A stretch of DNA of 64,000 nt, taken from positions 1-64,000 of the forward strand of contig NZ_CACRUY010000016.1 of NCBI RefSeq assembly GCF_902652685.1, given 5' to 3'. Source of the DNA: Mycobacterium sp. Marseille-P9652 (GTDB lineage Bacteria; Actinomycetota; Actinomycetes; Mycobacteriales; Mycobacteriaceae). Shown in pieces: positions 14,969 to 39,250 of the stretch. A program made the position numbers and the translations under genes. The notes under the pieces were generated by a model, which saw only the letters and a list, made by a program, of their open reading frames with translations, made no database searches and was not told the DNA's origin. How positions within the stretch are numbered: the stretch's first letter is position 1; every line of letters begins with the position of its first letter.

Positions 14969-15024
14969 CTACCTGGGTACGAGGACGCGTCGTTCGATCG
15001 ACGAATTATCACACATGTGTCGAA
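14969..15024 (-). promoter_or_regulatory. repeated promoter module, copy A (drives the 12791-14968 acyltransferase)
   Basis: On the minus strand, TTCGACACATGTGTGATAAT spans 15024-15005. It contains an ACA-CA-TGT inverted repeat directly before TGTGATAAT, which resembles an extended -10 (TGN plus GATAAT). Thirty-six nucleotides then lead to GTG 14968, passing AGGTAGGT as ribosome binding site. No TTGACA-like -35 is visible, so activator or repressor binding at the inverted repeat is plausible. Four further copies of the module are listed. Confidence 0.65.
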
Positions 15025-15259
15025 TTTCGATGGAGGCAGTCACGCCGCAATGGGGCACGACTCGTTGAGTCGACTGCATTGCCGGTATTTCGCGAATGAC
15101 TGCAGGGTGCCGCGTGGTACTGACCCCCTGCTGCAAAACATCTGCAAACGAAATTGGACTGAACACCTCTCTGGTAGGAGGGGAACTCGAGGAATCCGAA
15201 TCCGAGCCTTCTGGGGACAACGGTGACGCCGTGATTGGCCATCATCGTCAGCTTGCTGA

Positions 15260-15311
15260 ACAGCTGTGTGATAATGCCTCGACTCTAAGAACGCGTCCTC
15301 TTCCCAGGTAG
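15260..15311 (+). promoter_or_regulatory. repeated promoter module, copy B (drives the 15312 acyltransferase)
   Basis: ACAGCTGT (15260-15267), GT, then GATAAT (15270-15275), with CCTCGACTC next and AGGTAGGT just before the start. The gap from GATAAT to GTG 15312 is 36 nt, the same as in copy A. Copies A and B face away from each other in one divergent intergenic region. About 235 bp between the two modules hold nothing else I recognise. Confidence 0.65.
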
Positions 15312-17486
15312 GTGGTCTTGCACCCGGCCGACAGCGTTAGCACTGCTGGCGAGGCGCCGACTCAACGCTCGACACAGCCGCAATTTCGCCCGGACATCGA
15401 GGGCTTGCGCGCGGTCGCGGTGGTAGCCGTTGTCCTGTTTCACGCTGAATTGCCCGGGGTGAGTGGCGGCTTCACCGGGGTGGACGTGTTCTTCGTCATC
15501 TCCGGTTTCCTGATCACGGGGATGCTCTTGCGAGAGGTGAACACGACTGGCAACGTCCGGCTGCGCCGCTTCTACGGAGCCAGGGCCCGCCGCCTGTTGC
15601 CGGCATCGGCCACAGTGGGCGTCGCTACCGTGCTTGGTGCGGCGGTCTTGTTGCCCGTGTTGCAGGCCGAGCCCATCATTCGTGACGGGATCGCCAGCGC
15701 GTTGTACATCGGCAACTACTGGTTTGCTCTGCAAGGAGTCGACTACCTGGCCGCCACGGCGACGCCATCGCCGTTTCAGCACTACTGGTCACTTGGGGTA
15801 GAGGAGCAGTTCTACCTGGTCTGGCCAGCAATGATCATCGGTACGGCCTGGCTCGTCCGGCGCGTGCGCCGCCGCACGGATGCCGCCTCCTCGCAGCGGC
15901 CGTATCTGGTCGTTCTTGCGCTGGTCGCGGCGATATCGTTTGCGATGTCGTTGGCGCTCACTCACCTAGCGCCTCCCGTGGCTTTCTTCTCACTGCCCAC
16001 GCGTGCCTGGGAATTGGCGGCCGGCGGCCTGGTGGCCCTCACCGGGGCCCACTGGCGCCGGCTTCCTCCTCTGCCCGCGGCGATCGCGGGGTGGTCGGGG
16101 CTGGGCTTGATATTGCTGGCCTGCACTTGCTTGGGTCCAACCACCCCCTATCCGGGCACTGCGGCGCTCTTGCCGGTACTGGGTGCGGTGCTGGTAATCG
16201 GCGCGGGTTGTGCCGCACCGGCTCAAGGGAGCGGGCGGGTCCTGGGAGTGCGGCCGATGCGGGCCATCGGCCGAGTGTCTTATTCGTGGTATCTGTGGCA
16301 CTGGCCGATGCTGATGATCGCGCTTTGGTCGTTAGCGCCCGTAATGGGCCATGCGGTGTGGCTGGCTCTGGCGGCTGTCCTGATCTCCCTTGCGCTGGCC
16401 GTGCTGACCCTGCGCATCATCGAGAATCCGTTGCGATTCGCCCCCTCCATGCGTCGGTCAGCTGCCCGCAGTCTCGCGCTCGGCGGTGGCGCCACCTCGT
16501 TAGTTGTCTGTGTAGGCGTGGCCTTGCTGATGTTATTGCCGACCCCGGTCGGTCGGGGCCCGAATGCTCCGACGCTGACGGTCACCGTGGCGCCTACGCC
16601 TTGGGGCTCTGGCGTTGAGGCATACGACGCGACCGTGCGGGATGCGTTTGCGCAGGTGCAGGCCGCGGTCGCAGCATCGGTTGCGGTGAGAGCCGTACCG
16701 TCAAATTTGAAGCCACCACTCGCCGCGACGCCCAAGTTGTCGTTCTTAGCCCCCGAACGCTGCCTTCTCAGTTTTTTCGAAATCAGACAACCCGAGTGTG
16801 CGACAGGTGACGCCACCTCGACGAGCACGATAGCGCTGGTCGGTGACTCGAACGCTGAGATGTGGCGCCCGGCGCTCCAGCACGTCGCCGAACAGCGGCG
16901 TTGGCGGCTGGAAACCATGACCAAGGTCGCGTGCCCCTTGCTAAATCTACCGATCCGCAACCCCGTCTTTGGCCGGGAGTACAGCGAGTGTGAGCAGTGG
17001 GGAGGTCAAATCACGGCCCGGCTGCGTAACGAGCACCCGCGGCTGGTCGTGCTCAGCGCGATGCGGCGATACGGCGCCCTGTACGGTATTACGCCGTACG
17101 GTGCCGCATGGATGGACAGTCTTCGCCGTGAAGTGCTCGAGCTGCGCGGCATCGGTGCGCAGGTACTGGTGCTCGGGCCGATCCCGGATCCGCACGTGCA
17201 GGCACCGTTTTGCCTCTCCAGCCATCTTGATGACGCCACGGCCTGCTCGTCGCCGAGATCGACGGCGGTCGACGAAGCCGGTATTGCCGCCGAGTCGGCC
17301 GCCATCAAAGCCGCCGGTGGACAATACGCGGACCTCAGCGATCTGTTCTGCACCGCCGAGCGCTGCCCTGTGATCGTGGGAAATGCCCTGGTATATCAAG
17401 ATGAGAACCACGTGACGGCCGAATACGCTCGGTTGCTGGCGCCGTTGATCGGGGCGTTGGCCGACCGCGCGCTTGCCCGCGGTTGA
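15312..17486 (+). CDS. acyltransferase-3 (OafA/YrhL-type) with C-terminal SGNH domain, paralogue 2
   Basis: This 724-residue protein has the same architecture as the divergent neighbour. An AT3 membrane domain carries FRPDIEGLRAVAV and LFHAE (His44), followed by a linker and an SGNH domain with GDSNAEMW at about residue 510 and DENH at about 697. The start GTG 15312 gives MVLHPADSVS, an N-terminus shared with the paralogue at 23756 (MTLHPADSVS), which supports the choice. The Shine-Dalgarno is within CCAGGTAG. Predicted function is O-acylation of an extracytoplasmic glycan. Here GDS is followed by Asn rather than the His of paralogue 1, so the paralogues may differ in activity. Confidence 0.9.
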   Translation: MVLHPADSVSTAGEAPTQRSTQPQFRPDIEGLRAVAVVAVVLFHAELPGVSGGFTGVDVFFVISGFLITGMLLREVNTTGNVRLRRFYGARARRLLPASATVGVATVLGAAVLLPVLQAEPIIRDGIASALYIGNYWFALQGVDYLAATATPSPFQHYWSLGVEEQFYLVWPAMIIGTAWLVRRVRRRTDAASSQRPYLVVLALVAAISFAMSLALTHLAPPVAFFSLPTRAWELAAGGLVALTGAHWRRLPPLPAAIAGWSGLGLILLACTCLGPTTPYPGTAALLPVLGAVLVIGAGCAAPAQGSGRVLGVRPMRAIGRVSYSWYLWHWPMLMIALWSLAPVMGHAVWLALAAVLISLALAVLTLRIIENPLRFAPSMRRSAARSLALGGGATSLVVCVGVALLMLLPTPVGRGPNAPTLTVTVAPTPWGSGVEAYDATVRDAFAQVQAAVAASVAVRAVPSNLKPPLAATPKLSFLAPERCLLSFFEIRQPECATGDATSTSTIALVGDSNAEMWRPALQHVAEQRRWRLETMTKVACPLLNLPIRNPVFGREYSECEQWGGQITARLRNEHPRLVVLSAMRRYGALYGITPYGAAWMDSLRREVLELRGIGAQVLVLGPIPDPHVQAPFCLSSHLDDATACSSPRSTAVDEAGIAAESAAIKAAGGQYADLSDLFCTAERCPVIVGNALVYQDENHVTAEYARLLAPLIGALADRALARG

Positions 17487-17640
17487 GATGGTGCAAATCG
17501 ACATCCTGCGCGCTTCGCACTCGCGCCGCCGACTTTTCTCCTCCCGACGAAGGCAACACCGGCCTCCGCTCTGCCAGCCGTCCTCAACGTTGATCCGTTC
17601 GCCTCTAGGTGCATCGATGACAAGCCGCGTGCCGCATCGA

Positions 17641-18435
17641 TCAGTGACGAACCGGTTTCGGCCGTGCGATCTCAGGAGGCAGCACACTATCTGCGAGCCA
17701 GGCGTCGAGGGTGCGCGCGAAGAGGTCGGGATAGTGCGTGGGCCAGTCGTGCGGCATACCGACCGCGACCCTGTTGACTCCGTGGGGCATTTGCCGCGCG
17801 AGCACCGCAGCCCAGCGGCGTGCGCTGGGCAGCTCCTTACTGCCGGTGACGAACAATGTCGGCGATTCCGATTTGCAGAGTTCTTCCGGGATCGTGAATC
17901 CCGCGGCCGCCATGATGACGTCCGCGAGCTGCCCACTGGTGATGAGACGTACGTCATCGCGATAGTCATCGAGTCGGGCCCGTGGAACCTTCGCTTGCCA
18001 GGCATTGCGGTGCTGGCGCACCATCCAGCGGTAGATCGGGTTGCGGGCCGGCAATGCCACGAGGCGGCGCGTCAGCTCGGCGAACGGCAGGGTGTTGACA
18101 AACGTCCCGCAGAGCACCGCCCGATCGACGAGTTCTGGCTCGGTCGCGAGCAACTGGACTCCCACTTGGGCACCCAGCGACAGGCCCACAATGTGGGCGC
18201 GGCCCGCGCGCACCCGGGAGCGGATAAGTTCGGCCACCAAGCCGGCGGCTCTGCCCATGTCGAATGGTCCCAGCTCGAAGCTCTTGCCGAAGTGGGGCAG
18301 GTCGGGGACCAGACAGCGATATTGCTGCATGCGTTCGACCACCGCCTCCCAGGACCAGCCGCTCGTGTACGCGCCGTGCAAGAAGACGATGGCGGGTGCC
18401 CTCGCCGGACCGGATTCGCGCACGAACAGGTCCAT
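17641..18435 (-). CDS. alpha/beta-hydrolase
   Basis: This 264-residue protein has the oxyanion-hole region FLHGAYTSG at about residue 20, the nucleophile elbow GLSLGAQ with Ser at about 86, and a late His in MPHDWPTHYP. ATG 18435 (MDLFVRESG) starts right at the fold; an in-frame start at 18519 would add 28 residues of low-complexity sequence. The substrate is unknown: acyl-ester or thioester hydrolysis in lipid assembly is possible, but many housekeeping hydrolases look alike. It is convergent with paralogue 2 of the acyltransferases and divergent from the nucleotide-sugar operon. Confidence 0.78.
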   Translation of the reverse strand: MDLFVRESGPARAPAIVFLHGAYTSGWSWEAVVERMQQYRCLVPDLPHFGKSFELGPFDMGRAAGLVAELIRSRVRAGRAHIVGLSLGAQVGVQLLATEPELVDRAVLCGTFVNTLPFAELTRRLVALPARNPIYRWMVRQHRNAWQAKVPRARLDDYRDDVRLITSGQLADVIMAAAGFTIPEELCKSESPTLFVTGSKELPSARRWAAVLARQMPHGVNRVAVGMPHDWPTHYPDLFARTLDAWLADSVLPPEIARPKPVRH

Positions 18436-18671
18436 AAGCAGGGACCCTAACGCGTTAGGCAGCGATCTTTCAGTCTCCGATAACGCGGGGCCAACCGGCG
18501 TTTGCCGGCCACGTCGCACCGGGGAATCCGCGGGTGGGCGGCTAGGGCGAAATTCGGGACCGTACTCCTATTACACGGGTGTTGGATTAGACTGCCACGG
18601 GTTAGCGGGGTTGGAGGTCGCCGCTCACCTTTCAGGACGCGCACGGGGGACCGAAGGGGCTGGGTTCCGCG

Positions 18672-20054
18672 ATGGCAGACGGTGTGTTCGGACGTAGCGA
18701 CGCCGAAATCGATCTCCTGGTCCGCGGCATGCGATCGGGCATCGCCGTGGTGGGCTTCGGCTACATCGGCACCGTCATCGGCGCCGTGCTGGCCGACCGC
18801 GGCTGGCCGGTGACGGGAATCGATGTTCGACAAGCCGTCGTCGACGAGATCAACCTGGGCAAGACGACTGTGCCCGAGCCGGGGCTTGACGAACTCGTCG
18901 CCAACAGCGTGCGCATCGGCCGGCTTCGCGCCACGACCGACTTTGGTGCCCTCGAAGACAACGACTTCGTCATCGTGACCGTTGGCACGCCACTGGGACC
19001 GGACTTCGAGCCCATCGTTGACGACATCAAAGCCGCGGCCAAGGCCGTGGGGGAGCACCTCCGTCCCGGCCACCTCGTCATCCTCAAGAGCACCGTGCCA
19101 CCCGACACCACCGAAAACCTCGTCCGCCCGATCCTCGAAGAGGCCTCAGGGCTGCGCGCGGGCGTCGATTTCGGTTTGGCGTTTTGCCCCGAGCGGCTCG
19201 CCGAAGGTCAAGCCATCAAGGAACTGACGTCGATCCCCGTTGTGGTCGGCGCGGTCGACGAGCGCAGCGCTCGCGCCTGCTCCACACTGTGGCGGCACGC
19301 CCTCGGAGTGGACTCCGTCGTCGTCGACGATCCGCGCACCGCCGAGATGGTCAAGCTTGCTGACAACCTCTGGGTCGACCTCAACGTCGCGCTGGCAAAC
19401 GAGCTGGCCAAGGTCTGCGACCGGCTGGGCATGGACGCCTTGCAAGTCATCGAGGCGGCGAACACGATGCCCAAGGGCGGCCGCGACGCGAACATCCTCA
19501 GGCCGAGCATGGGTGTGGGTGGTTACTGCCTGACGAAAGACCCGTGGTTCGTCAACCACCTGGGCCAGTCCGTCGGGCTGGATCTGGCCATCCCGCGGAC
19601 GTCACGGACGGTCAACGACACGATGCCGGCCTACACCTACGGGCTGCTCACTCAGCTCCTCGCCAGTCAGGGCAAGACGGTCGGAGCCAGCAAGATCGCT
19701 GTGCTGGGCATCGCGTTCAAGAACAACACCGGCGACTGTCGGCTCACGCCCACCAAATACGTCGTCGGCCTGCTCGAGGAATCCGGCTGCCAAATTGCAA
19801 TCCATGATCCGTGGGTGCCGGACGACGAGGCCCGCACGGTAACGAAGATCCCGATGACCCCGGACATTGAATCGGCGGTCAAGGACGCCGACGCCTTGGT
19901 GGTGCTGGCGGGGCACCGGGAATTCCATCAGATCCCCCTTGTGCGGCTCGCCGAACTGGCGTCGACCGGGTGCGTGTTCCTCGACGGCCGGAACAGCTTC
20001 GACCCAGCGGCGGTTCGCGCCGCCGGCTTCGTCTACAAGGGGATAGGCCGGTAA
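18672..20054 (+). CDS. UDP-glucose/GDP-mannose 6-dehydrogenase-family nucleotide-sugar dehydrogenase
   Basis: This 460-residue enzyme has the NAD motif VGFGYIG (about residues 27-33) and TPLGPDF in the first Rossmann domain. The catalytic cysteine is in GVGGYCLTKDPW (Cys at about 286), and the UDP-binding domain is C-terminal. The family oxidises the C6 hydroxyl of a nucleotide hexose to the uronic acid with two NAD+. The next gene, an SDR related to UDP-glucuronate decarboxylases/epimerases, starts 48 bp downstream and a GT1 enzyme follows, so the three look like a make-and-transfer unit for a uronic acid or a sugar derived from one. The sequence alone does not separate UDP-Glc from UDP-ManNAc or UDP-GlcNAc as substrate. 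Confidence 0.87.
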   Translation: MADGVFGRSDAEIDLLVRGMRSGIAVVGFGYIGTVIGAVLADRGWPVTGIDVRQAVVDEINLGKTTVPEPGLDELVANSVRIGRLRATTDFGALEDNDFVIVTVGTPLGPDFEPIVDDIKAAAKAVGEHLRPGHLVILKSTVPPDTTENLVRPILEEASGLRAGVDFGLAFCPERLAEGQAIKELTSIPVVVGAVDERSARACSTLWRHALGVDSVVVDDPRTAEMVKLADNLWVDLNVALANELAKVCDRLGMDALQVIEAANTMPKGGRDANILRPSMGVGGYCLTKDPWFVNHLGQSVGLDLAIPRTSRTVNDTMPAYTYGLLTQLLASQGKTVGASKIAVLGIAFKNNTGDCRLTPTKYVVGLLEESGCQIAIHDPWVPDDEARTVTKIPMTPDIESAVKDADALVVLAGHREFHQIPLVRLAELASTGCVFLDGRNSFDPAAVRAAGFVYKGIGR

Positions 20055-20102
20055 GCGGCCGAAGGCGAACGTCGACCGCTACACGGAATCGAAAGAGCAA
20101 AT

Positions 20103-21104: not shown

Positions 21105-21244
21105 GACAGTCGTTTGTCCAGGCCTCTGGATTTTATGTCTGTAGCGCCAGCGACCACGTTATGCTGCTCGGCGCAGCTGGGAATGTGGGCTGCCGCTCCC
21201 ATTACTCAGACTCGCACGGGAAGTGAAAGGTTGGGATTTCGCCG

Positions 21245-22525: not shown

Positions 22526-22529
22526 GCGG

Positions 22530-23642: not shown

Positions 23643-23755
23643 CTTACGATCCCTCTCGTCGCTTTATGAGGGAAGAATGCGACCGCGACACCCCGCTCGG
23701 TGTGCGTGCCACGCCGATCATAGGGCAGACCACGCCATCGTCACCGCGTGCCATG

Positions 23756-25942
23756 TCAACCCGCGGCGAGTACTCGGTCAGTCAGCGCTCCCAACACCGG
23801 GGCCAACAGCCGACTGTATTCGATCGTTACGTGGTCCTGATCGCGGTAGACCAAGGTGTTGCCGACGATGACCGGGCAGCGATCGGCGGTGCAGAAAAGC
23901 TCGGTGAGGTCGGCGTATTGCCCGCCGCCGGCTTTCGTGGCAGCCGCCTCGGCCACGATTCCGGGTTGTTTCACGGCCCTGGACTTGGCTGGCGAACAGG
24001 CGTTAGCGTCGTCGAGATGGACGGACAGGCATAGGGGTACGACTGACTGCGGGTCGGGTATCGGTCCGAGCAGCAGCACTTGGGCGCCCATACTGTGCAG
24101 TTGCTGTACTTGGCGGCTCAGGCTGGCGATCCATGCAGGATCATACGACGTAAAGCCCGAGGCCCAACCGTATTGGGCGCCGTACCGCCGCATCATGCTG
24201 AGCACCACCAGCCGCGGGCGCTCGGCCCGTAACCGCGCAACGATCTGCCCCCGCCACTGTTCACACTCGGTGTAGTCCCGGCCAAACAGGGGGATGGCGA
24301 TTGCCATGTCCATCAATGGGCAGTAGGCCTTGGTCAAGGTCTCGAGCCGCCAGTGCCGCTGGGCGGCGACCTGCTCGAAAGCTGGCTCCCACATGGCCGC
24401 ATTGGAATCTCCGACCACTGCCAGTGTCGTCGAAGAAGCGGTGTCACCCGTCGCGCACTGCGGATGATCGATCAGGAGAAGATCGCGCAAGCAGCCATTC
24501 GCGCCGAGCGGTCTCTTTGCCGCTTCGGCGAGCGGAGGATTCAGGTTCAAAGGGACGGCTTTGACGTCGGCCGAGGCCGCGACCGCGACCTGCACCTGCG
24601 CGAACGCCTCTCGCATCGCCGCGTCGTACGCGGCGATGTCGGAGCCCGCCGGGGGAGACGTTGCAGTGATGGTCAGCGCGGGCGCTGCAGGGCCACGGCC
24701 GACCGGGGTCGGCACCACAACCAGGAGGGCCACACCCACACCCACTGCCACCGCGGTGGCGGCGCCGCCGAGCGCGAGGCTGCGGGCGGCCGACCGGCGC
24801 ACGGGTACGGCGAATCGCAGCGGGTTCTCGATGAGACGCAGGGTAAGCACAGCCAACACGAGGGAAAACAGGATCGCGACAACTCCCAGCCAGAGTGGAT
24901 GCCGGGGCCATGCCGCGGCAGGCATCGCCACGAGCAGGACCGGCCAATGCCACAGGTACCACGAGTAGGACACCCGGCCGATCGCGCGCATCGGCCGCAC
25001 CGAGAGCAGATGGTCGACGCCCCGCGCCGGGGCGGCGCAGCCCGCGCTGATCACTAGCGCCGCACCCAGCACGGGCAACAACGCCGCAGCACCCGGATAG
25101 GGTGTGGACCGATTCAATTGAGAGCAGGCCAAAACTATTAGGGCCAGGCCTCCCCACCCGGTGATTGCTGCGGGCAGTGCCGGCAGTCGACGCCACTGTC
25201 CGGCGGTCAGCGCCACCAGACCACCGACTGCCAACTCCCAAGCCCGGGTGGGCAGCGAAAAGAATGCGACCGGAGGCGCCGGGCGAGTGGTCGCCAGCGA
25301 CACTGCAAACGACAACGCGGCAACCAGCGCCAGGACTACCAGATATGGGGTAGTCCTAGAGCCGGCATGGGTTTGGCGCTGTCGGCTTGTCCGTCGGATC
25401 AGCCACGCTGTCCCGATGATCAAGGCCGGCCACACCAGGTAGAACTGCTCCTCGACGCCCAACGACCAGTAGTGCTGGAACGGAGAAGGCGGCAAGTTGG
25501 TCGCTAGGTAGTCGACGCCTTGCAGCATGAACCGGTAGTTGCTGACATACAACGCGCTGGCGATGCCGTCATCGATGATGCCTCGGGACAGCAACGCTGG
25601 CACCAGGGCAGCCGCGCCGAGCATGATCACTACCCCGACCGTGGCGGATGCCGGTAGCAATCGCCGGGCCCGCGCCCCATAGAAGCGCGCCAGCCGGACG
25701 GTGCCGGTGGTGCCTGCCTCGCGCCAGAGGAGCCCGGTGATCAGAAACCCCGAGATCACGAAGAACACGTCCACGCCAACAAATCCCCCACTCACACCGG
25801 GTATGTCGGCGTGAAATAGGACAACGGCCACCACCGCGACCGCGCGCAGGCCCTCGATATCGGAGCGAAATCCCGCTCGTGCCAAGCGTCGACTCTGTAT
25901 TGCTTCGGTATGGCTAACGCTGTCAGCCGGGTGCAAGGTCAC
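23756..25942 (-). CDS. acyltransferase-3 (OafA/YrhL-type) with C-terminal SGNH domain, paralogue 3
   Basis: This 728-residue protein is closely similar along its length to the 15312 product. It has FRSDIEGLRAVAV, LFHAD (His44), an AT3 membrane domain, and an SGNH domain with GDSNAAMW at about residue 511 and DQDH at about 700. The GTG start at 25942 gives MTLHPADSVS and follows AAGGTAG. Predicted role is O-acylation of a surface glycan. Three such enzymes could acylate three positions or provide strain-variable acyl patterns. The gene sits 113 bp downstream of the epimerase start on the same strand. Confidence 0.9.
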   Translation of the reverse strand: MTLHPADSVSHTEAIQSRRLARAGFRSDIEGLRAVAVVAVVLFHADIPGVSGGFVGVDVFFVISGFLITGLLWREAGTTGTVRLARFYGARARRLLPASATVGVVIMLGAAALVPALLSRGIIDDGIASALYVSNYRFMLQGVDYLATNLPPSPFQHYWSLGVEEQFYLVWPALIIGTAWLIRRTSRQRQTHAGSRTTPYLVVLALVAALSFAVSLATTRPAPPVAFFSLPTRAWELAVGGLVALTAGQWRRLPALPAAITGWGGLALIVLACSQLNRSTPYPGAAALLPVLGAALVISAGCAAPARGVDHLLSVRPMRAIGRVSYSWYLWHWPVLLVAMPAAAWPRHPLWLGVVAILFSLVLAVLTLRLIENPLRFAVPVRRSAARSLALGGAATAVAVGVGVALLVVVPTPVGRGPAAPALTITATSPPAGSDIAAYDAAMREAFAQVQVAVAASADVKAVPLNLNPPLAEAAKRPLGANGCLRDLLLIDHPQCATGDTASSTTLAVVGDSNAAMWEPAFEQVAAQRHWRLETLTKAYCPLMDMAIAIPLFGRDYTECEQWRGQIVARLRAERPRLVVLSMMRRYGAQYGWASGFTSYDPAWIASLSRQVQQLHSMGAQVLLLGPIPDPQSVVPLCLSVHLDDANACSPAKSRAVKQPGIVAEAAATKAGGGQYADLTELFCTADRCPVIVGNTLVYRDQDHVTIEYSRLLAPVLGALTDRVLAAG

Positions 25943-25999
25943 CTACCTTGGAAGAGGAACGAGTCCGCAGAGTCGAGGAATTATCACACACGTGTCTAA
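25943..25999 (-). promoter_or_regulatory. repeated promoter module, copy C (drives the 23756-25942 acyltransferase)
   Basis: Minus-strand GACACGTGTGTGATAAT spans 25996-25980: inverted repeat ACA-CG-TGT, GT, then GATAAT. CCTCGACTC follows, as in copy B, and the distance to GTG 25942 is 37 nt. Farther upstream, AGTTAACAGTTG near 26020-26031 matches a similar AGTTAACAACTC stretch upstream of copy D, so the two regions share descent beyond the core. Confidence 0.65.
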
Positions 26000-26219
26000 G
26001 GCATCGGGCCGATTCCGCAACTGTTAACTACCTGCGAGCGCGCGTCGGCCAATATGATGAAGGCTCGGGACGGCCGCGGTCGAAGGCAAGCGGCGCTTAA
26101 ACCGCTGCGTCGGCTGTAAGTTCCCCTTATCTCGTCAGTTTCGGCACCGCGGCCAGCTCGGCGTTGATGCGCATTTAGCTGCGGCGAAGGCGATGAGCTC
26201 TACTCGACGCCACTGGCGA

Positions 26220-27548
26220 TCATGGGCATGCCGACACCCACATCGGATCGGCGGCCAACTGCGAGCAGTGGGTCATCAGACGCTGGTTCCCTTGCTCAGT
26301 GCTGATCGCAGTGAGGATTGGGAGTGCAGTGAAAGCGACGATTGCAACTGCGAAGGAGATTCGGGTGCGTCTGGCGGCCGGCCGGGCCGACTCGGGTTCA
26401 CGGCTCGCATAGAGCAGATAAACCACGCCGACATCGAAGCTGATGACTATCCACCATCGGAGCCAATCGGCAGCAGTTGCGAAAATCGGAAGCAATAAAA
26501 GGGCCGCCAGAGCTATCCACGAATGCCGGCGTTGGACGGCTTGGCGAATTCGCCCGAGGGGCACGCCGGAAAAACCCCGGACGACGAACACCGTCACGGC
26601 GAAAACGACAAGCCCTGCAATGGTCTGCATTATCCACGGTCCCCAACCGAGCGGATTGAGTTCGATCAGGGGCGTTTTCCTCGTTGTTACGGTAATATAG
26701 CGACAAGTCCAGTCGTGATAGTCCACATACCGACCGGGCGCAAATAGCAAGGTTCTGTGTGGCAACCGCGCACATTGCGAGGAAACGTCTCGCTGCCTCA
26801 GCCCCGCAATCGCCAGCGCGACCGCCAAGCCAGGAGCTACGGCAAGAAGGGCACTGACGCGCTGAATTTTGACGGAGGTACGCGGCAGAACCGCGATCGC
26901 CAGGATCGCACCGAGCGCCTGCAGAAACGGAACAGCCTCGTGGATCAGCGTCAGTACCGCCACAGTCATGCCATAAATGCCACTCGCAGGCAGTAGCGAT
27001 CGGCTCCCCTTCGGCGAGGCGAGCATCACTGCGAAGAGCGCCAACGCTGCCTCGCCAAGAAGGTCGGGAGTTGGTGCCGCCACAGCCCGCACCAAACCGA
27101 AAGGCAGCGCCGGGATGAGTAGGGCGAGCATCAACCGGCGTTCGGAGCGACCGAATGTGCTTGCCACCGTCCACGCCACTGCCGCGATGGCGACTCCGAA
27201 GAGGGTCGGGACAAGCCAGCGCATTATCAATAGGCCGGTGAAGTAGAGGCTGGCGGGGAAGAGGTCAATAATCTCGCCAATGAGTCCACGTCTAACAAAG
27301 CCGTGGCGGTAATCGATCGCATAGTAAGCGAAAAATTGCAGATTAGGCTCGTAAATACTCGCGTATGCAACCGAAGACGCGATATAGAGCAGCACAAGCA
27401 GACCGATGATCGCGTAGACGGCCGTTACCCGATTGCTCGGCTCATCACACTCCCCAGTTCGAAGCGATTCTTCGGTTTGGTGGCGACGACCGGTGCCAAA
27501 TCCCGTCTGCCTCGTGCGACCGTCTAGTCGCTCGGGTTCTGGTTTCAT
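26220..27548 (-). CDS. polytopic membrane protein of unknown function, paralogue 1
   Basis: This 442-residue protein has a hydrophilic N-terminus of about 40 residues and then roughly ten hydrophobic segments. I do not recognise the family. Conserved with the paralogue at 28003: YEPNLQFF-YYA-DY with GF-RRGL-GEI in the loop after TM1, HDWTCR-ITVTTRKTP, WWI-ISFD, and four Cys (QCARLPH, DWTCR, THC, and the second-last residue of the protein). The Cys probably sit in extracytoplasmic loops. An acidic first loop and many TMs recall GT-C glycosyltransferases or polysaccharide polymerase/flippase proteins, which is speculation. ATG 27548 overlaps the stop of an upstream leader ORF (ATGA). Confidence 0.75.
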   Translation of the reverse strand: MKPEPERLDGRTRQTGFGTGRRHQTEESLRTGECDEPSNRVTAVYAIIGLLVLLYIASSVAYASIYEPNLQFFAYYAIDYRHGFVRRGLIGEIIDLFPASLYFTGLLIMRWLVPTLFGVAIAAVAWTVASTFGRSERRLMLALLIPALPFGLVRAVAAPTPDLLGEAALALFAVMLASPKGSRSLLPASGIYGMTVAVLTLIHEAVPFLQALGAILAIAVLPRTSVKIQRVSALLAVAPGLAVALAIAGLRQRDVSSQCARLPHRTLLFAPGRYVDYHDWTCRYITVTTRKTPLIELNPLGWGPWIMQTIAGLVVFAVTVFVVRGFSGVPLGRIRQAVQRRHSWIALAALLLLPIFATAADWLRWWIVISFDVGVVYLLYASREPESARPAARRTRISFAVAIVAFTALPILTAISTEQGNQRLMTHCSQLAADPMWVSACP

Positions 27549-27694
27549 GCTGTCGCCTCAACGCGGGCGATCCGCCAGGCGAACCGCGATGGCATGTAAG
27601 CCCTGGACGCCGGAGCGTGGGATCCCGTACGTGGCGCTTGTCGACTAGGTACTGCTTCGCGAAGGCTAACGCTGTCGGCGGGCTTCAAGGTCAC
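27545..27694 (-). pseudogene. 49-codon leader ORF: relic of an acyltransferase 5' end, coupled to the membrane protein gene
   Basis: GTG 27694 lies 36 nt behind promoter copy D and starts MTLKPADSVSLREA, matching the N-terminus MTLHPADSVS of the acyltransferases at 15312 and 23756. After about 20 codons the resemblance fades. The frame stays open to a TGA at 27547-27545 that overlaps the ATG of the membrane-protein gene. The body of the acyltransferase is gone. The exact 4-nt overlap suggests the relic now serves as a translated leader that loads ribosomes for the downstream gene. The overlap and N-terminal match are seen directly; the coupling is inferred. Confidence 0.65.
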
Positions 27695-27750
27695 CTACCT
27701 TTAAAGCGAACGAGCGGGCAAATCGCAGGCATTATCACACAAGTGTCGAA
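27695..27750 (-). promoter_or_regulatory. repeated promoter module, copy D (upstream of relic leader and membrane protein)
   Basis: Minus-strand TTCGACACTTGTGTGATAAT ends at 27731: ACA-CT-TGT, GT, GATAAT. It is 36 nt from GTG 27694 and passes AAGGTAGGT. This is the same geometry as the acyltransferase promoters, though the gene it now serves is unrelated. The remaining bases up to the next gene end at 28003 (about 250) hold only the AGTTAACAACTC stretch shared with copy C. Confidence 0.62.
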
Positions 27751-28002
27751 TAACTTGGACTGGTTACACGAGTTGTTAACTGTGGGCGAGAGGCGGTCGG
27801 CGAACGCCTCGATTAACGGGACTCGCAAAACATCCTCATTATCGTGCGGTGGGAGAACTCAAATGCGACACCGCGGCATCGACAAGGGAAATACAATCTC
27901 GCCCACGTGCAAGAGGAGTGCAGGCTTGGCGGCTGAGTCGGTGTAGCCGCGGAGCGGGCGGCTAGGTCGGAAGGTCACCAGCTAGGCCGACGCGATCGCC
28001 GA

Positions 28003-29328
28003 TCAGGGGCAGATCCCCACCCACATCGGGTCATTAACCAGCTGCGGGCAGCGTGTCAACAGGGCCCGCACCGATTGTTCGGTGTTGACCGCAGCAGGGA
28101 TTGGGGCCAGAGCAAAAAAGACGATCGTCACCGCGAACCAGACCCGGGTGCGTCTGGTGGCCGAGCGTGTCGATTCGGGTTGACGGCTCGCATAGAGCAG
28201 ATAAATCACGCCCAGATCGAAAGAGATTGCAATCCACCATCGGGTCCAATCGGCCGAGGTTGCGAACACCGGAATCAACAACAGCGTCCCCAGAGTTACC
28301 CACGGAAGCCATCCCCGCAGGGCTTCGCGAAAGCGTCCGACGGGCACGCCGGAAATACGCTTGATGGCAAGCATCGACAGCGTGAGGATAAGGACCCCCG
28401 CCATTGTCGACATGATCAAAGGATTCCAACCGATCTGGTTGGGACCGATGAGGGGAGTCTTTCTGGTTGTGACGGTGATGAAGCGACAAGTCCAGTCGTG
28501 ATAGTCGACGTAAGCGTGTTCGCCGCTTGGAGCGTGGCCAGGCGCCCAGCGAACGGCGCTGTGCGGCAACCGAGCACAATGCGGCGACACGTCTTGCCGT
28601 CGCAGCAACGCTATCGCCAACGCGACGGCTAAGCCTGGACCCACCGCGAGAAGCGCGCTGAGGCGCTGCATTCTGACGGAACTATGCGCCAGAACCACAA
28701 TCGCCAAAACGGCGCCGAGCGCCTGCAGAAACGGAACCGCCTCGTGGATCAGCGTCAGCCCCGCAATCGCTGCACCATAAATACCACTGGCAACCGGTAG
28801 CGATCGGTCGCTTTTCCCAGAGGCGAGCACAACCGCGAACAGCGCCAGCGCTGCCTCGCCTACGAGGTCGGGAGTGGGCAACACAACAGCGTGCATCAAG
28901 CCGAACGGCAACACTGGAGTGAGGAAGGCCAGCATCAGCCGCCGCTCTGAGCGGCCGAATCTGACTGCAACAGTCCACGCGACCGCCGCGATGCCGACTC
29001 CGAAAAGCGCTGGCACCAGCCAGCGCAAAGCCAACAGGCCGGTGAAGTAGTGGTCAGCGGGAAAGAGGTCCAAAATCTCGCCGCCGAGGCCCCGCCTGGC
29101 AAAACCGAGGCTGTAATCGACGGCGTAGTAAGGGAAGAACTGGAGATTCGGTTCGTAAACACTCGCGAAAAGGACCCAAGACGCGATATACAAGAGAACA
29201 AGCAGTCCGACGATCGCGTAAGCGAATTTGCGCCGGCTGGGCGGCCCGTTCCATCGCAAGGCCGCTGGCGGTTGGTCGGATTGCTGTTGCGTCGTAGGCG
29301 AACCTAGCCGCCATGCTTCAGGGCTCAT
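28003..29328 (-). CDS. polytopic membrane protein of unknown function, paralogue 2
   Basis: This 441-residue protein is homologous to the 26220 product throughout its membrane part. It shares YEPNLQFFPYYAVDY, GFARRGLGGEILDLFP, HDWTCRFITVTTRKTP, WWIAISFDLGVIYLLYASR and the same four Cys. I chose ATG 29328 (MSPEAWRLGSP) because AAGGGCGA lies just upstream; an in-frame ATG at 29391 would overlap the PKS gene. It starts 44 nt after the FAAL-PKS stop on the same strand, so the two are probably co-transcribed. That argues for a role in export or membrane assembly of the PKS product, or a GT-C-like transfer step. No family assignment. Confidence 0.75.
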   Translation of the reverse strand: MSPEAWRLGSPTTQQQSDQPPAALRWNGPPSRRKFAYAIVGLLVLLYIASWVLFASVYEPNLQFFPYYAVDYSLGFARRGLGGEILDLFPADHYFTGLLALRWLVPALFGVGIAAVAWTVAVRFGRSERRLMLAFLTPVLPFGLMHAVVLPTPDLVGEAALALFAVVLASGKSDRSLPVASGIYGAAIAGLTLIHEAVPFLQALGAVLAIVVLAHSSVRMQRLSALLAVGPGLAVALAIALLRRQDVSPHCARLPHSAVRWAPGHAPSGEHAYVDYHDWTCRFITVTTRKTPLIGPNQIGWNPLIMSTMAGVLILTLSMLAIKRISGVPVGRFREALRGWLPWVTLGTLLLIPVFATSADWTRWWIAISFDLGVIYLLYASRQPESTRSATRRTRVWFAVTIVFFALAPIPAAVNTEQSVRALLTRCPQLVNDPMWVGICP

Positions 29329-29371
29329 ATTGTCGCCCTTGGCGCGGGCAACAAGTCGCTCAAAATCAGGT

Positions 29372-32300
29372 TCAACAATCGATTTCTGCAATCAAATCGA
29401 ATTCCGCGAAAGTGCGAGACACCATGTCTCGCAGCTCGTTTGGAGTATTCGGCCGACCGAGAACATAAGCCGAAATACGGAAAAAGATCTTCCCGCGGCT
29501 TCGCCCCGAACCTACGAACAGTTGCCCGCCTATGTGCTCGAGGGTGCTTTTCTTGATATCGGGTTCAACCGATCTCATAAACGCGTACTCGGCGTCGGTG
29601 CCGTCCGGCCGGTTCACTGCCGGGGGCAGGTCGCCGACGTTGGAGACGGTAACCGGATGGTTGGCGCCACCCGCCGCCAGCCCTGCCAGCCTCCGGTTCA
29701 ACCGCTTCGGAACCAACGGTGCCAGTGGGAATGTCGACAAATATTCGTCGTCCGGGTTCTTCATCGCCGCAAGGATGTCCCGCGTGATTTTGGCGTGCAT
29801 ATCCCCGAGGTCTGTCGCCGCATGCGTTGGGTCGACTGCGACGTCGACCACTGTGAGCGCGTTGGCGCGTGTATCGCCTTCGGTCCGAAGCGTCACGGGA
29901 AATCGTAGGGTGACCGTTCCGTCGCCATGAGCGCGCCCCGCTCGCACCGCGAGCCTGCACGCTACCGCCGCCACCAGCGAGTTACTGCTCGCAGCAAGGC
30001 TTTTCGCGCGGGCATCCCAATCCGCCAGGTCGACGTACGCGGTGAGGGCAGGCACCTCCACTGTTTGATCGCTGTCGGCCGTCCTCGAGGTAGGCGCTGG
30101 TGCCGCCTTGATCGAGGAGGTGAATTGCTTCCGATCGGGCCAAATTTTTCGAGCCGCGGACACCGCCGCCCGACCCATGTCCGGCAGGTCTTTTGCGGTT
30201 TGCCGAAGGTCCTCCCGCATCGCATGCCGGCGGGTGCGCGATCCCGCGGGCGGGTAGCCGAAGTCGTGGATTCTGCCCTCAGCGGCATCCGCGATCGCCT
30301 GGCCGAGGCCAATCCCGTCGACGAGCGTATGCGAAACCACCAAGCTGACCGCAGCGCCGCCGCCATCGAACGAAAGCACTCCAAGATGCCAGCCAGGTCC
30401 CCACTCGGGATCAATGGGAAGGCGCGCCCGCTCGTCGAGCCAAGCGTTCAGTTCGGCGCGCGGCCGTGGCGTTGCGTCGATGTCGATGTTGTTCGGCGCC
30501 GGGGCCAAAACCCAGCGATCACGCGCGAACGGTAACGGAGACCGTTCGATCCTGCGTCCCAACAACCCGCATCCCAGATTGCGGTGGAAGCGCCGTAACG
30601 CCTCGACATCGACGGCATGGTCATAGAGCCAAGTGAACTGAGTCAGCGTGCCGTGAACCGCTCGCATCGCGAGAAACACCGCTTGATCGACATACGTCAG
30701 CCGGTTGTCGACCGGCTCAGCTGCACGCGTGCTGACGTCAGCCTCTGGCGCCGGGGGAGGAGCGGCGGTGTCCGTGAGCAGCTCGGTCAGGTGCGCGGCG
30801 AGCGCGGCCGGCGTGGGCTGGTCGAGGACCAGGGTTGCCGGTAGGGCAAGACCGGTGTGTTGGTTGAGGGTGTTGCGTAGCTCCAAGGCGGTCAGCGAAT
30901 CGATGCCCAGGTCTTTGAACGGTCGGTCGGGATCGAGGGCTGCCGGGTCGGGATGGGCCAGCACGGCCGCGGTCGTGGCGGTGACCATCGCCGTGAGAGC
31001 GTGGAGTCGTTGTTCCGGGGTTTGGGTGGCGAGCTGAGCCTGCAGACTGCGGGCGCTGACCGCGCTCGCGCGTGGGCGGCTGCTGGCAAGTGTCGACAGG
31101 ATCGCGGGAAGGGCGTTCTGGCGTGCTTGGCGCGTCAATGCGGCGGTGTTGAAGGGACTGGCCAGCACGTTGGGCCGCTGACTGGCGAGGGCCGCGTCGA
31201 AGAGCGCGAGGCCGTGCTCGTTGGTGATTGGGGTCAGGCCCGTTCGGGCCAGGCGGGTCAGGTCGGCGGTGCTGAGGTGGGCGGTCATGCCGCTGGGGGT
31301 TTGCCAGTAACCCCAGGCCAGGCTGGTGGCCGGGAGTAAAGCGTGATGGCGGTGCTGGGCCAGCGCGTCGAGGAACGCGTTGGCGGCCGCGTAGTTGGCC
31401 TGCCCGGGGCTGCCCAAAATGCCCGCGGCAGAGGAGAACAAGACGAAGGCGGCCAATTCGCGGTCAGCGGTGAGGCGGTGCAGATTCCAGGCGGCATCGG
31501 CCTTGGCGGCCAGGACCGCGTCGAGTTGATCGGGGGTCATGTCGGCCACCGCAGCGTCCTCCAGGAGCCCGGCGGCGTGCAGAACTGCGGTCAACGGATG
31601 CTGAGCCGGAACGCTCTCTAGCGTTGCGGCCAGCTCGGCGGGGTCGGCGGTGTCGCAGGCGGCGACGGTGACGTGTGCGCCAAGCTGGGTCAGGCGCTGT
31701 TGAAGATCCGCTGCACCGGAGGCGGCCGGGCCGCGGCGCGACACCAGCAGGAGATGCCTGATGCCGTAATGGGTGACGAGGTGTTCGGCGAAGAGCGCGC
31801 CGAGCATCCCGGTGCCCCCGGTGATCAGCACCGTGCCCTCGGGATCCAGCGACGGGGGCGGGATCAGGACGATTTTTCCGGTATGGATTCCCTGACTCAT
31901 GTCGCGGAACGCCTGGGGGGCGTTCAGCAGTCCGTAGCTGGTGGTGGGCAGGGGTTTGAGGGCGCCGGACGTGAATAACGCTTCGAGGGCCGCCCAAGCC
32001 GGTTGCAGCGCTTCCGCGGGTGCGCTGGCCAGGTCGTAGGCCTGGTAATGCACCCCGGGATGGGCGGCAGCGACCTCGCCGGCCACGCGGATGTCGGTCT
32101 TGCCGATCTCGATGAAGCTGCCCCCGCGCGGTAGCAGTTGCAGCGACGCATCGACGAACTCTCTGGCAAGGCTATTGAGCACGACGTCCATGCCCCGGCC
32201 GCCGGTGGCGGCGCGGAAGGTGTCGAGGAAGTCCAGCGTGCGCGACGAGGCGATGTGGTCGGGGTCGACCCCCAGCCCGGTGAGCACGTGCTGCTTGCTC

Positions 32301-35300: not shown

Positions 35301-38300
35301 CCGCCCTGGCCGGGCAAGACGAACACGACCTTGCCGCGCGCGTGGGCCAAAAAGGTGTGACTGGTCAGCTGCGGATGAGTTTGGCCGGCGCGCAGCGCAT
35401 CCAGGGCGTCCAACAGCTCTTTGCGTGGGTCGGCGGCGGCCGCCGGCGCGGTGATCACCGCTCGATAGGGGTGATGGGTGCGAGTGGTGGCCAGGCTGTA
35501 GGCCACATCGTCCAAGCCCAGGTCGGGCAGGCCGCTGAGGTGGCGGTGCAGCCGGTCGGCCTGCGCGCACAACGCGGCGGGGGAGCGCGCCGAAATCGGC
35601 CACAAGAGCCCGGCCTCGACGCGGGTTTCCCCGGCCGCGTGTTCGGCCTGCGGGGCGGGGGCTTGTTGCAGGATCAGGTGGGCGTTGGTGCCGCTGATCC
35701 CGAACGAGGACACCCCCGCCGTGCGGGGATGATCGGTGGCCGGCCATGCCACCGGCTCGGTGAGTAGGCGAACGGTGCCGGACGACCAGTCGATGTGCGG
35801 GTTTGGGCGCTCGACGTTGAGGGTCGGGGGCAAGGTGTCGTGGTTCAGGGCCTCGACTATCTTGATCATCCCGGCCACGCCGGCGGCGGCCTGGGTGTGG
35901 CCGATATTGGATTTGATCGACCCCAACCACAACGGGTGCCCGGCACTGTGGGCGGCGCCGTAGGTGGCGATCAGGGCACGCGCCTCGATCGGGTCACCCA
36001 ACGTGGTGCCGGTGCCGTGAGCCTCGACCACATCCACCTCGTCGAGGCCGATTCCGGCGTTGGCCACGGCCTGGGCGATGACGCGTTGCTGGGCCAGCCC
36101 GTTGGGCGCGGTCAAGCCATTGGAGGCGCCGTCCTGGTTGATCGCCGAACCGGCGATCACTGCGAACACCTGGTGGTGGTTTTGTTGGGCATCGCTGAGT
36201 CGTTCCAGGACCAGTACGGCGGCCCCCTCACCCCAGCCGGTGCCATCGGCGTTGGCGGAGAACGCTTTACACCTACCGTCGGCGGCCAGCCCGCGTTGGC
36301 GGGCGAACTCGGTGAAAATCGTCGGGGTGGTCATCACCGTCACGCCACCGGCCAGCGCCAGGCTGGACTCTCCCTTGAGTAACGACTCACACGCCCAATG
36401 CGCGGCCACCAGCGATGACGAGCAGGCCGTGTCCACGGTGACAGCGGGACCCTGCAGCCCGAACGCGTACGCGACACGGCCGGAGATCACGCTGGTGGAT
36501 GAACCGGTCAGGCCATAGCCCTCCGCACCGTCGGAACCACCGGCGCCGTAGGTTTGCGACCACGCTCCGACGAACACCCCGGTGTCCGAGCCCGCCAACG
36601 TGGTGGGATCGATGCGGGCGCTTTCCAACGCTTCCCAGCACACCTCGAGCAGCATTCGCTGTTGAGGGTCCATGGTTTGGGCCTCGCGCGCCGAGATCCC
36701 GAAGAAGTCGGCGTCAAAGCCGGCGACGTCGGCCATGAAACCGCCGGCCCGCGCGTAGGTCTTGCCGACCGCGTCGGGGTCGGGGTCGAACAGGTCCGCC
36801 AGGTTCCAGCCGCGGTCGGAGGGAAAGTCGCCCATTGCGTCGGTGCCGCCAGCCACCAGATCCCACAGTGCCGCCGGCGAATTCACCCCGCCGGGGAAGC
36901 GGCACGCCATCCCCACCACGGCGATCGGCTCGTCCACGCGCGCTTGAGCACCCGCCGGCGCAGCGGCCGAGGCGGGGCCGGTGAGCAACTGACTCAGCCG
37001 GGTGGCCAACTCGTCGGGGGTGGGGTAGTCGAAGGCCAGGGTGGGCGGTAACTCCAGTTCGGTAACGGCTTTCAGCCGGTCAATCAACTCGGTCACCTTC
37101 ACCGAGTCGAAACCCAGGTCCTTGAATGTGAGCTCGGGATCGAGGTCCTGAGGGCTGGCTTGGCCCAGCACCTTTGCCGCCTGCGCGCACACCTCTTTCA
37201 CAAGCATGTCGTGTTGCTGCTGACGCAGGGTGCGAAGTCGTTGGGCCAATCCCGAGTCGGCGAGCGCGGCGGCGCCTGCGTCATCAGCGTCTTGCTGCTC
37301 CGGCGCGGGAGTCGTCCCGTCGATGCGGGTGAACTGATCGTGCATGTACAGCTGTAGGCAGTCCCTTCGCCTGACCTTGCCGCTAGTGGTCAGGGGGATC
37401 GAACCCTGTTGCACCAGAACGAGATCCGCCACGCTCAGACCGTGCGCCCGCGAAATCGCGGCGGTGATTTCACGCCTGAGGGTAATGATCCTGCGAGCGG
37501 CCGCCTCGTCGGGCTCGTCCCGCTTCTTGACTTCGACGATTGTGACCAGCTGCTCGGCGCCGTCATCGCCCGCAACCGCAATGGCCACGCAGCGGTTATG
37601 CGTGATCTCCTGGATCGTTTCCTCGATGTCGTCGGCGGGGTAGTTGCGCCCGTAGACGATCAGAAGATCTTTGATCCGGCCGACGATGAACAGCTCCCCC
37701 TGAGAAACGAAGCCCAAGTCTCCGGTTCTCAGCCAAGGGCTCTCGGGTGTGCCGGCCGACGCACCGACCAGCGTTGCGCCGAAGGTGCGTTGGGTTTCCT
37801 CGGGCTTCTGCCAATAGCCGGCTGCGACGTTGTCGCCATGCACCCAGATCTCACCGACCGTTCCGTCCGGCAGCTCGGAACCGGTGTCGCGGTTGACGAT
37901 GCGCACCATCGGTGACGGCGGCACGCGGTAACTGACTAGCGGCGTGCCGTCGCCGTTCGCGGACCGCTCCGCAAGGCCGGCGGTCAACTTCTCGGCTTCG
38001 AACCAAACGCTGGCCGGTTCTCGACCCCACCGGCCGGTGGCCACGTACACCACGGCCTCCGCCAGCCCATACGAGGGCCGGATCACTTCGGGGCGGAGAT
38101 TGAACTGAGCGAAGCGCTCCGAGAACCGCCGCAGCGTCGCGGGCTGCACGCGTTCACTCCCGTTGATGATGGCGTGCACACCGCCAAGGTCCAGCCCTGC
38201 CATGTCGTCGTCCGACGTTTTCCGCACCGCCAATTCGAAGGCAACGTTCGGCGCTGCCGTGAACACGCGACTTCTGCTTGCCAGCAATTGCATCCAGCGC

Positions 38301-39055
38301 GCCGGCCGCTGCAGGAAGGACACGGGGCTCATCATCACGCAGTGATTTCCGCCCAGAACCGGCATGACGGTTCCCAATACCAAGCCCATGTCATGAAACA
38401 GGGGTATCCACTGCACCAAGGTGGTGTCCGGCGGGGTAATCCCTCCGTGCTCTGCGAAGAGATCGGCCGTCAACTGTTCGTAATTCACCCGAATGTTTCT
38501 GTGCGAGATCATCACTCCCGCGGGTATCCGTGTCGACCCGGACGTGTATTGCAAATGCGCAATGCTGGGCGGGTCATCGATCTCGACAGCGGACACCATC
38601 TCGGAGTCCAGGTCCAGCAGATCAAGCTCGATGACTGACGGTGCAGCCTCGCCCGGCTTCGAAAAGATGTGGTCGGCGAGGCTGCCTGCGACGGAGGACG
38701 TGGTCAGGATGGCGGCAGGCGACGCGTCACGCAGGACAGCGCCGACTCGCTCATCGGCGGCGCCGCCCAGCGGTTCCGACAGCGGAACCGCGATCATCCC
38801 GGCCTCCAACGTGCCCAGAAACGCGGCGACGTAGTGGAGTCCTTGGGGCGCCGATATCACGACGCGGTCACCGGTTGATCCGCAAGACCTCAGCTCGCGT
38901 GCGACGTTGAGCGTTCGCCGATACAACTGCGACCACGTCAGGGTTTCCGCGGCGCCGGCCCAGTCCTGCTCGTAATTGAGAAAGGTATACGCGGTCTCGC
39001 TGGGTCGTAGCTTCGCGTGCTTCCGCAGCGCCGCCGGGATGGAAGGCTCGGTCAC
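29372..39055 (-). CDS. fused FAAL-ACP-KS-AT-DH-ER-KR-ACP-acyltransferase (PapA-like) megasynthase
   Basis: This 3227-residue protein has the following approximate domains. FAAL/FadD AMP-ligase 1-580 ([13 protein letters not shown] at 169-181). ACP1 610-690 (GFDSVKV, Ser near 650). KS 705-1130 (DTACSSS near 873). AT 1250-1560 (GHSQGE near 1334; YASH near 1435, the methylmalonyl-CoA pattern). DH 1610-1880 ([10 protein letters not shown] near 1645). ER 2110-2390 ([17 protein letters not shown] near 2228). KR 2405-2620 ([15 protein letters not shown]). ACP2 2680-2760 (GIDSLTAL). A condensation-superfamily acyltransferase 2820-3227 (HTLVDG near 2908). No thioesterase is seen. It should activate a fatty acid, extend it by fully reduced methylmalonyl unit(s) and transfer the branched acyl directly to an acceptor. 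In LOS and similar loci these parts are separate FadD, Pks and PapA proteins. Start GTG 39055 overlaps a leader ORF stop (GTGA). Confidence 0.92.
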
Positions 39056-39192
39056 AGCGGCAGGCCAGCGTGAAACAGGTGGGCCTTGGCGCCACAGGGC
39101 CCTTCGTTATCCATGCGACGTTTTGACCGCACCGCGCGCTCACCCGGCAGCCCTTCGACAGGGCAAAAGCCGTCGGTGTGCCGCACGATCAC
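39052..39192 (-). pseudogene. 46-codon leader ORF: relic of an acyltransferase 5' end, coupled to the FAAL-PKS gene
   Basis: GTG 39192 lies 38 nt behind promoter copy E. The frame runs 46 codons to a TGA (39054-39052) that overlaps the GTG start of the FAAL-PKS. Near its end it reads HLFHAGLP at codons 38-45, matching VLFHAELP at residues 41-48 of the acyltransferases, including the catalytic-type His. The DNA CTGTTTCACGCTG is identical to the 15312 gene there. The intervening sequence is scrambled. I read it as a decayed acyltransferase gene start retained as a translated leader. Confidence 0.6.
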
Positions 39193-39250
39193 CAACCTTG
39201 GAAGAAGAGGACGGTTCTTCGAGTCGGGGAATTATTACACAGCTGTCCAA
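39193..39250 (-). promoter_or_regulatory. repeated promoter module, copy E (upstream of the FAAL-PKS)
   Basis: Minus-strand TTGGACAGCTGTGTAATAAT ends at 39231: ACA-GC-TGT, GT, AATAAT. CCCCGACTC follows, and AAGGTTGGTG carries the ribosome binding site and GTG 39192; the gap is 38 nt. The remaining bases to 39448 form a divergent region toward the TylF-like methyltransferase, in which I see no gene. Confidence 0.62.

Follow-up and report, generated by a model that had tools for sequence, protein, structure and literature searches.

A short promoter-like module occurs in five copies, S1 to S5, in a 64,000-nucleotide (nt) stretch of Mycobacterium sp. Marseille-P9652 (contig NZ_CACRUY010000016.1, positions 1 to 64,000; hereafter the window). 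This module is probably an extended-(−10)-like promoter without a −35 element, which belongs to genes for AT3-SGNH membrane acyltransferases, was spread by gene duplication, and was captured twice by other genes through truncation of an AT3 gene. It would constitute the 5' expression cassette of a single AT3-SGNH gene family. Its leader, about 36 nt in length, begins with CCTCGAYTC and would end in the ribosome-binding site, and copies of the cassette would have increased along with the duplicated AT3 genes. Twice in this stretch an AT3 gene appears to have been shortened to its first part, leaving the cassette in front of FAAL-PKS, a large polyketide synthase (S5), and in front of a duplicated membrane-protein gene (S4). 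The AT3 stub would thereby have become a leader open reading frame (ORF) whose stop overlaps the next start, such that ribosomes recruited to the former AT3 site could restart there. Such sequence fossils show how a surface-lipid locus can rewire expression.

Five copies of one gene front

The initial annotation had placed five copies of the module here, and a pattern search of the window recovers them as four exact matches and one with a single mismatch. GACASNTGTGTRATAAT is exact at 15005–15021 (−), 25980–25996 (−), 27731–27747 (−) and 39231–39247 (−), and at 15259–15275 (+) A replaces its leading G. With up to three mismatches, GACASNTGTGTRATAAT has six matches in the window, compared with a mean of 0.27 and a maximum of 3 in shuffled sequence (0 of 100 shuffles reach six). 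Across all 5,703,981 bases (128 contigs) of the genome, S1 to S5 are the only places that match the 16-base ACANNTGTGTNATAAT when one mismatch is tolerated, and its reversed control has no match at the same tolerance. The relaxed 22-mer TRTTNNRCRNNYGTGTRATAAT, allowing up to three mismatches, yields 14 matches genome-wide, nine of them outside S1 to S5, and two for the reversed control. The five sites differ from this 22-mer by 0, 1, 1, 1 and 2 positions, and three of the nine other matches, in unrelated places, have two mismatches and so equal S3.

The promoter copies and the intact acyltransferase genes of the window are as follows.

15005–15026 (−): S1, promoter copy AATTCGACACATGTGTGATAAT of AT3a; pattern match, GTG after 36 nt
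15254–15275 (+): S2, promoter copy TGCTGAACAGCTGTGTGATAAT of AT3b, pointing away from S1; pattern match
25980–26001 (−): S3, promoter copy CCTTAGACACGTGTGTGATAAT of AT3c; pattern match, GTG after 37 nt
27731–27752 (−): S4, promoter copy TATTCGACACTTGTGTGATAAT, followed by an AT3 5' relic; pattern match and identity to AT3c
39231–39252 (−): S5, promoter copy CGTTGGACAGCTGTGTAATAAT of FAAL-PKS; pattern match, with the 26-base FAAL form exact in eight genomes
12704–12725 (+): decayed sixth copy GATTGAACAGGTGTCTGATAAC, with a flank like that of S5 and no AT3 start behind it; relaxed search and flank comparison
12791–14968 (−): AT3a, acyltransferase-3 plus SGNH, 725 residues; Pfam PF01757 and PF19040
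15312–17486 (+): AT3b, acyltransferase-3 plus SGNH, 724 residues; Pfam
23756–25942 (−): AT3c, acyltransferase-3 plus SGNH, 728 residues; Pfam, with TTG at 25936 the likelier start

All three AT3 proteins score above the cut-off for both PF01757 (Acyl_transf_3) and PF19040 (SGNH). Their best NCBIfam model is SucT, but this identity was rejected because the score, 242 bits, falls short of the cut-off of 1275. The decayed sixth copy, which has three mismatches to TRTTNNRCRNNYGTGTRATAAT, lies between a GMC oxidoreductase gene and AT3a, and a better-preserved counterpart, ACAGGTGTGTGATAAC, occupies the equivalent place in G249 (L238, 9113–9128, +).

A GTG follows S1 to S5 after 36, 36, 37, 36 and 38 nt, so the fixed spacing originally described stands; its role as the start of a named gene does not stand at 27731 and 39231, where the GTG opens relic ORFs of 49 and 46 codons, respectively. 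Between the 27731 promoter and the following gene, 170 nt match the 5' end of AT3c at 74% identity (E 3.6e-24), and in frame this stretch reads VTLKPADSVSLREAV... over 49 codons, with a TGA that overlaps the ATG of a membrane protein of 442 residues (ATGA). At S5, 92 nt match the 5' end of AT3b at 76% identity (E 2e-14), and another 14 bases match exactly close to the FAAL start; the in-frame reading, VIVRHTDG...HAGLPL, runs for 46 codons and its TGA overlaps the FAAL GTG (GTGA). The corresponding features are listed below.

27545–27694 (−): S4 leader ORF, 49 codons, AT3 N-terminal relic with ATGA overlap to the next gene; sequence identity
26220–27548 (−): membrane-protein gene, 442 residues, 63% identical paralog of 28003–29391; protein comparison
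39052–39192 (−): S5 leader ORF, 46 codons, AT3 N-terminal relic with GTGA overlap to the FAAL-PKS start; sequence identity
29372–39055 (−): FAAL-PKS, 3227 residues, with AMP-binding, ACP, KS, AT, DH, ER, KR and ACP domains; Pfam
28003–29391 (−): membrane-protein gene, 462 residues, behind FAAL-PKS; ORF and comparison with relatives

All five sites are AT3 5' ends, three of intact genes and two of relics. The sequences themselves show this common ancestry, the truncated remnants, the stop–start overlaps and the preservation in other species. The five copies are not separately recruited operators. The tempting reading of independent operators of one factor is corrected here, as every copy is the front of a gene from the same family, in two cases a truncated one.

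The same association recurs across the genus. In a set of 396 genomes, including that of the window, the exact pattern occurs at 34 sites in 16 genomes, 29 of them in 15 of the 395 other genomes, and the reversed-pattern controls gave none among the matches listed. Twenty-five of the 29 sites lie directly 5' of an AT3-SGNH acyltransferase gene in the correct direction. Twenty-seven of the 29 loci were retrieved; 23 have an AT3 start 27–38 nt downstream in the correct direction, mostly at 36 nt, two (L007 and L014) precede FAAL-PKS, and L012 (G115) has no recognised gene link. The remaining two sites are likewise followed by AT3 genes, one of which is interrupted (two pieces). Motif searches of the genome and of its relatives thus give five sites in the former and sites mostly at AT3 starts in the latter, which upholds the proposal of a shared promoter-like module without −35, confined to this locus here and conserved upstream of acyltransferases and FAAL-PKS in related species. 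At L019 (G392), positions 1501–1634, the promoter is joined directly to a C-terminal AT3 stub, LFCTNNRCPVIVGNTLGALADRMLARG, followed by an epimerase gene; this arrangement reads as another stage of AT3 loss.

AT3 genes were also collected independently of their promoters. A search with the AT3c protein found a match at E 1e-180 or better in 222 of the 396 genomes, two candidates being scored per genome, and the AT3 set comprises rows with a query start at or before residue 10, down to E 2.3e-281, among the matches listed. Outside the window's genome, 80 of 83 listed AT3 rows were used first, and the start-codon counts and the alignment rest on these. Their upstream regions comprise 35 with GTGTGATAAT at no more than one mismatch (type I or close), 20 of type II, and 25 of neither. 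Type II, TG[TC][AG]ANAAT (TGTAAGAAT, TGTAACAAT, TGCAACAAT), lies at a similar distance from the gene. Among the three added rows, G302:C51 duplicates G302:C34, G125 is type II (TGCAATAAT) and G219 is neither, giving 35, 21 and 26 among 82 distinct rows. The window's own genome has seven AT3-like genes, three in the window, three with neither promoter type, and one, L249, unclassed. In a tree of 54 AT3 proteins, including 38 type-I rows, the promoter label needs four changes, compared with a mean of 14.0 for shuffled labels (0 of 500 as low), and therefore promoter type follows the AT3 gene.

The two captures have counterparts in relatives. The 26-base FAAL promoter form is exact in eight genomes, with FAAL-PKS behind it in all eight; the leaders span 83 to 275 nt and contain, in every case, a leader ORF, 13 to 77 codons long if the later NTG is taken as its first codon, that ends 1 nt into the FAAL start in five genomes and 5 nt in three. 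These eight genomes thus keep different stages of a shrinking AT3 stub. In G058, G051 and G261 the site at the same chromosomal place, beside a methyltransferase gene, is followed by an intact AT3 gene. AT3 promoters at this place share their 5' flank with the FAAL promoter. When the flank of the G058 AT3 promoter, for example, is compared without gaps with those of the eight FAAL promoters, 30–35 of 45 positions agree in six of them, and 25 and 19 in the two with indels. S2 shares 28 of the 45 flank positions and S3 17, so S2 may derive from the same line as the FAAL-promoter flank. For the membrane-protein gene behind FAAL-PKS (28003–29391), seven genomes (L015, L022, L023, L025, L029, L031, G249) have an AT3 promoter and an intact AT3 gene behind it, and G230 has AT3 fragments there. 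Neither this membrane protein nor its paralog at 26220–27548 matched any Pfam or NCBIfam family.

Anatomy of the module and its translation start

Forty aligned rows (35 relatives and the five window copies) give TRTT-NR-RCR-NN-YG-TGT-GATAAT-N-CCTCGAYTC. The conserved block is longer than first described, extending 5' to TRTT and downstream into the leader (CCTCGAYTC). Weighted information content, computed on 37 of the 40 type-I rows (L160, L197 and L206 were omitted because their left half departs from RCR), amounts to 1.86 bits per column in TRTT, 1.59 in RCR, 1.97 in YGT, 2.31 in GTGATAAT and 1.13 in the leader from +0 to +9, and falls to 0.18 far upstream. The remark that the copies lack a clear −35 is borne out, as the −35 window carries 0.27 bits per column compared with 1.59–2.31 in the conserved blocks. 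TGT stands directly 5' of the hexamer in 40 of 40 copies; hexamer position 1 is G in 39 and A in one, and positions 2 and 6 are A and T in all 40. The bare extended −10 portion corresponds to TGTGATAAT, as opposed to the TRTT, RCR and NN positions.

The inverted repeat ACA-NN-TGT, initially regarded as an operator, fares worse. Of the 40 rows, 18 carry it in perfect form and the rest mostly have ACG/TGT (7), GCA/TGT (6) or ACA/CGT (4), and half-site complementarity (93 of 111 cells) equals the shuffled mean of 93.2, with 1474 of 2000 shuffles of the right half reaching as high. In the FAAL promoters, ACG in five of eight breaks the palindrome. Because so few copies are perfect, complementary cells are as frequent as in shuffles and the FAAL promoters so often carry ACG, the palindrome itself is not what is preserved, each block being preserved separately, and the dyad as a strictly preserved operator was rejected, with no compensatory change between its half-sites. 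An extended −10 could account for the right half (YGTG) but not for the left blocks.

Downstream, the leader bears on start-codon choice. Among the 80 AT3 genes, a start-capable codon is found at codon 1, the GTG of the initial annotation, in 60 and at codon 3, an NTG six nt later, in 72; for type II (n = 20) the figures are 12 and 20. In the FAAL leaders of G249 and G201, GTG has become GCG and TTG is retained. The sequence around this GTG, AAGGTAGGTGACC, is similar to the complement of the 16S rRNA end. Because the NTG is kept in 72 and the GTG in 60 of 80 genes, the GTG is lost with TTG retained, and AAGGTAGGTGACC shows this likeness, the GTG probably lies inside the ribosome-binding site and translation would start at the later NTG in most members. 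Start codons called at such a GTG may accordingly be six nt too early, family-wide. In three type-I relatives (L174, L181 and L184, of G285, G327 and G017), a natural leader deletion places the −10 only 9 nt from the GTG; these genes look as if they would yield leaderless mRNA, and the spacing is consistent with a transcription start shortly downstream of the −10. Promoter activity and the transcription start are inferred, and likewise the choice of start codon and translational coupling; the S4 and S5 leader ORFs are perhaps coupled to the next gene.

Several points weigh against the account of an AT3 promoter that spread with its genes and was captured. The hexamer is GATAAT or AATAAT, not TANNNT, so that the module acts like an extended −10 at most and is not filed as a strict member of TGNTANNNT. 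The TRTT and RCR blocks exceed what an extended −10 alone explains. Type I does not form one clade, as at least two of the four label changes are forced by well-supported branches, and the type-I rows of the tree were partly collected using the pattern itself. The leader frame is open in all eight FAAL leaders, but frame +1 is also stop-free in eight of eight (frame +2 has stops in six of eight), and because frame +1 is equally open the openness is not evidence by itself; moreover, the FAAL start sequence GTGATTGA itself supplies the stops at +1 and +5. Finally, 3 of the 35 type-I relatives, those with the leader deletion, retain only the first GTG and not the later NTG.

Regulators, sigma factors and leader RNA

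It is possible, if doubtful, that a dedicated transcription factor binds a box that overlaps the −10 spacer, so that the acyltransferases, FAAL-PKS and the membrane protein are switched together. Such a single-factor regulon would agree with the confinement of the motif to this locus, with conservation of TRTT (1.86 bits per column) and RCR (1.59) where RNA polymerase needs no sequence, and with the different sequence that more distant AT3 genes (type II) have before the same −10. In addition, the S4 and S5 promoters are intact despite a broken AT3 frame, and the gene-less copy at 12704 has decayed. The likeness of the five copies can be explained, however, by shared descent of one gene family, which suffices without a regulator, and the ACA-NN-TGT repeat shows neither strict preservation nor compensation. 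A regulator gene inside the locus was rejected, because no DNA-binding regulator family was found among the 47 contig proteins scanned with Pfam, a subset of the contig's ORFs; the larger gaps 1–766 and 53890–54338 were also read for ORFs, and the second holds an MbtH-like gene. Of the one-regulator regulon put forward at first, the dyad and the recruitment of operators are set aside, while a regulator remains compatible with TRTT and RCR blocks conserved beyond the needs of an extended −10.

In a related version, which we consider rather unlikely, an unnamed regulator would read TRTT-NR-RCR, its regulon would grow by AT3 duplication and truncation, and type II would be a sister circuit with a different box. 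If true, this would be regulon growth without new operator evolution, as a duplicated AT3 gene would carry the box along and neighbours would join via the leader ORF.

A promoter class of an alternative sigma factor, with G or A rather than T at position −12, is improbable. GATAAT and AATAAT in place of TANNNT speak for it, and Cortes et al. (PMC3898074) suggest that other sigma factors may serve the 27% of M. tuberculosis starts that lack TANNNT. Its regulon would be expected beyond one locus, whereas only five sites occur in 5.70 Mb at no more than one mismatch (the nine weaker TRTTNNRCRNNYGTGTRATAAT matches outside S1 to S5 were not assessed for gene context), and no second element is conserved at −35.

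Very improbable is a conserved leader RNA element, an attenuator or riboswitch whose upstream edge would be the −10-like block. The conservation of the leader from +0 to +9 (1.13 bits per column) is in its favour, but six leaders folded singly were no more stable than shuffles (z −0.73 to +1.16), and the strongest block, GTGATAAT, lies 5' of any transcript starting there. A chance resemblance, or a mobile repeat not tied to any gene, for which the one site of 29 without a recognised link (L012, G115) might be cited, is excluded by the shuffles (0 of 100 reach the count), the genome search and the link to AT3 starts in relatives (25 of 29 sites), with reversed controls at 0 as listed.

The AT3 promoter, carried along with its gene and twice captured, is thus a real, conserved and locus-limited promoter family of an ordinary kind, with an unusual capture history and one conserved box for which no reader is known. 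The promoter and ribosome-binding site of an acyltransferase that has been lost would now serve a large polyketide synthase and a membrane protein, which leaves a testable promoter, with its unexplained box, in a locus decorating outer mycobacterial lipids.

Locus content and known systems

Besides the genes listed, the locus contains an ABC exporter, several glycosyltransferases, methyltransferases, a second PKS, an MbtH-like gene and tandem non-ribosomal peptide synthetase (NRPS) genes, a content consistent with a glycopeptidolipid-type product. The MbtH-like gene (54238–54489, +) is followed by NRPS genes at 54339–59087 (+) and from 59041 (+) into L033, in different frames, the second frame being open to contig position 71626; this arrangement appears glycopeptidolipid-like. 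Past the NRPS genes, contig 64001–97856 (L033, L034) carries a PE_PGRS gene and genes of the biotin, NAD and histidine pathways.

Open-access text searches of limited wording found no literature on GTGTGATAAT in mycobacteria or on this promoter. The closest known element is the extended −10 promoter. In Cortes et al. 2013 (PMC3898074), M. tuberculosis promoters are described as having no −35 consensus, and TGN before TANNNT as accompanying higher activity. The module resembles this extended −10 (TGNTANNNT) in its TGN before the hexamer, its lack of a −35, and A and T at positions 2 and 6, but differs in G or A at position 1, in the additional TRTT-NR-RCR box and in its restriction to one locus.

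For the coupling at S4 and S5, uPPE2-ppe2 of M. tuberculosis offers a model, as PMC11260477 reports an upstream ORF with an AUGA overlap that is required for ppe2 expression in mycobacteria. Both systems have a short leader ORF that ends overlapping the main start (NUGA); unlike uPPE2, the leader ORF here is an acyltransferase relic, of 13 to 77 codons, and no riboswitch was found among the leaders folded here. Deletion-born gene fusions (PMC12803068) likewise involve a deletion that joins the front of one gene to another, whereas in this locus the downstream partner retains its start codon and the front piece forms a separate leader ORF.

The three window acyltransferases carry both Pfam domains of AT3-SGNH acyltransferases of bacterial surfaces, a group covered by a review (PMC9558356). 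Compared with glycopeptidolipid-type NRPS loci of mycobacteria (PMC3537567, PMC11978893), the locus shares an MbtH-like gene beside tandem NRPS genes, glycosyltransferases and methyltransferases, and differs by its FAAL-PKS, its second PKS and its several AT3 genes.

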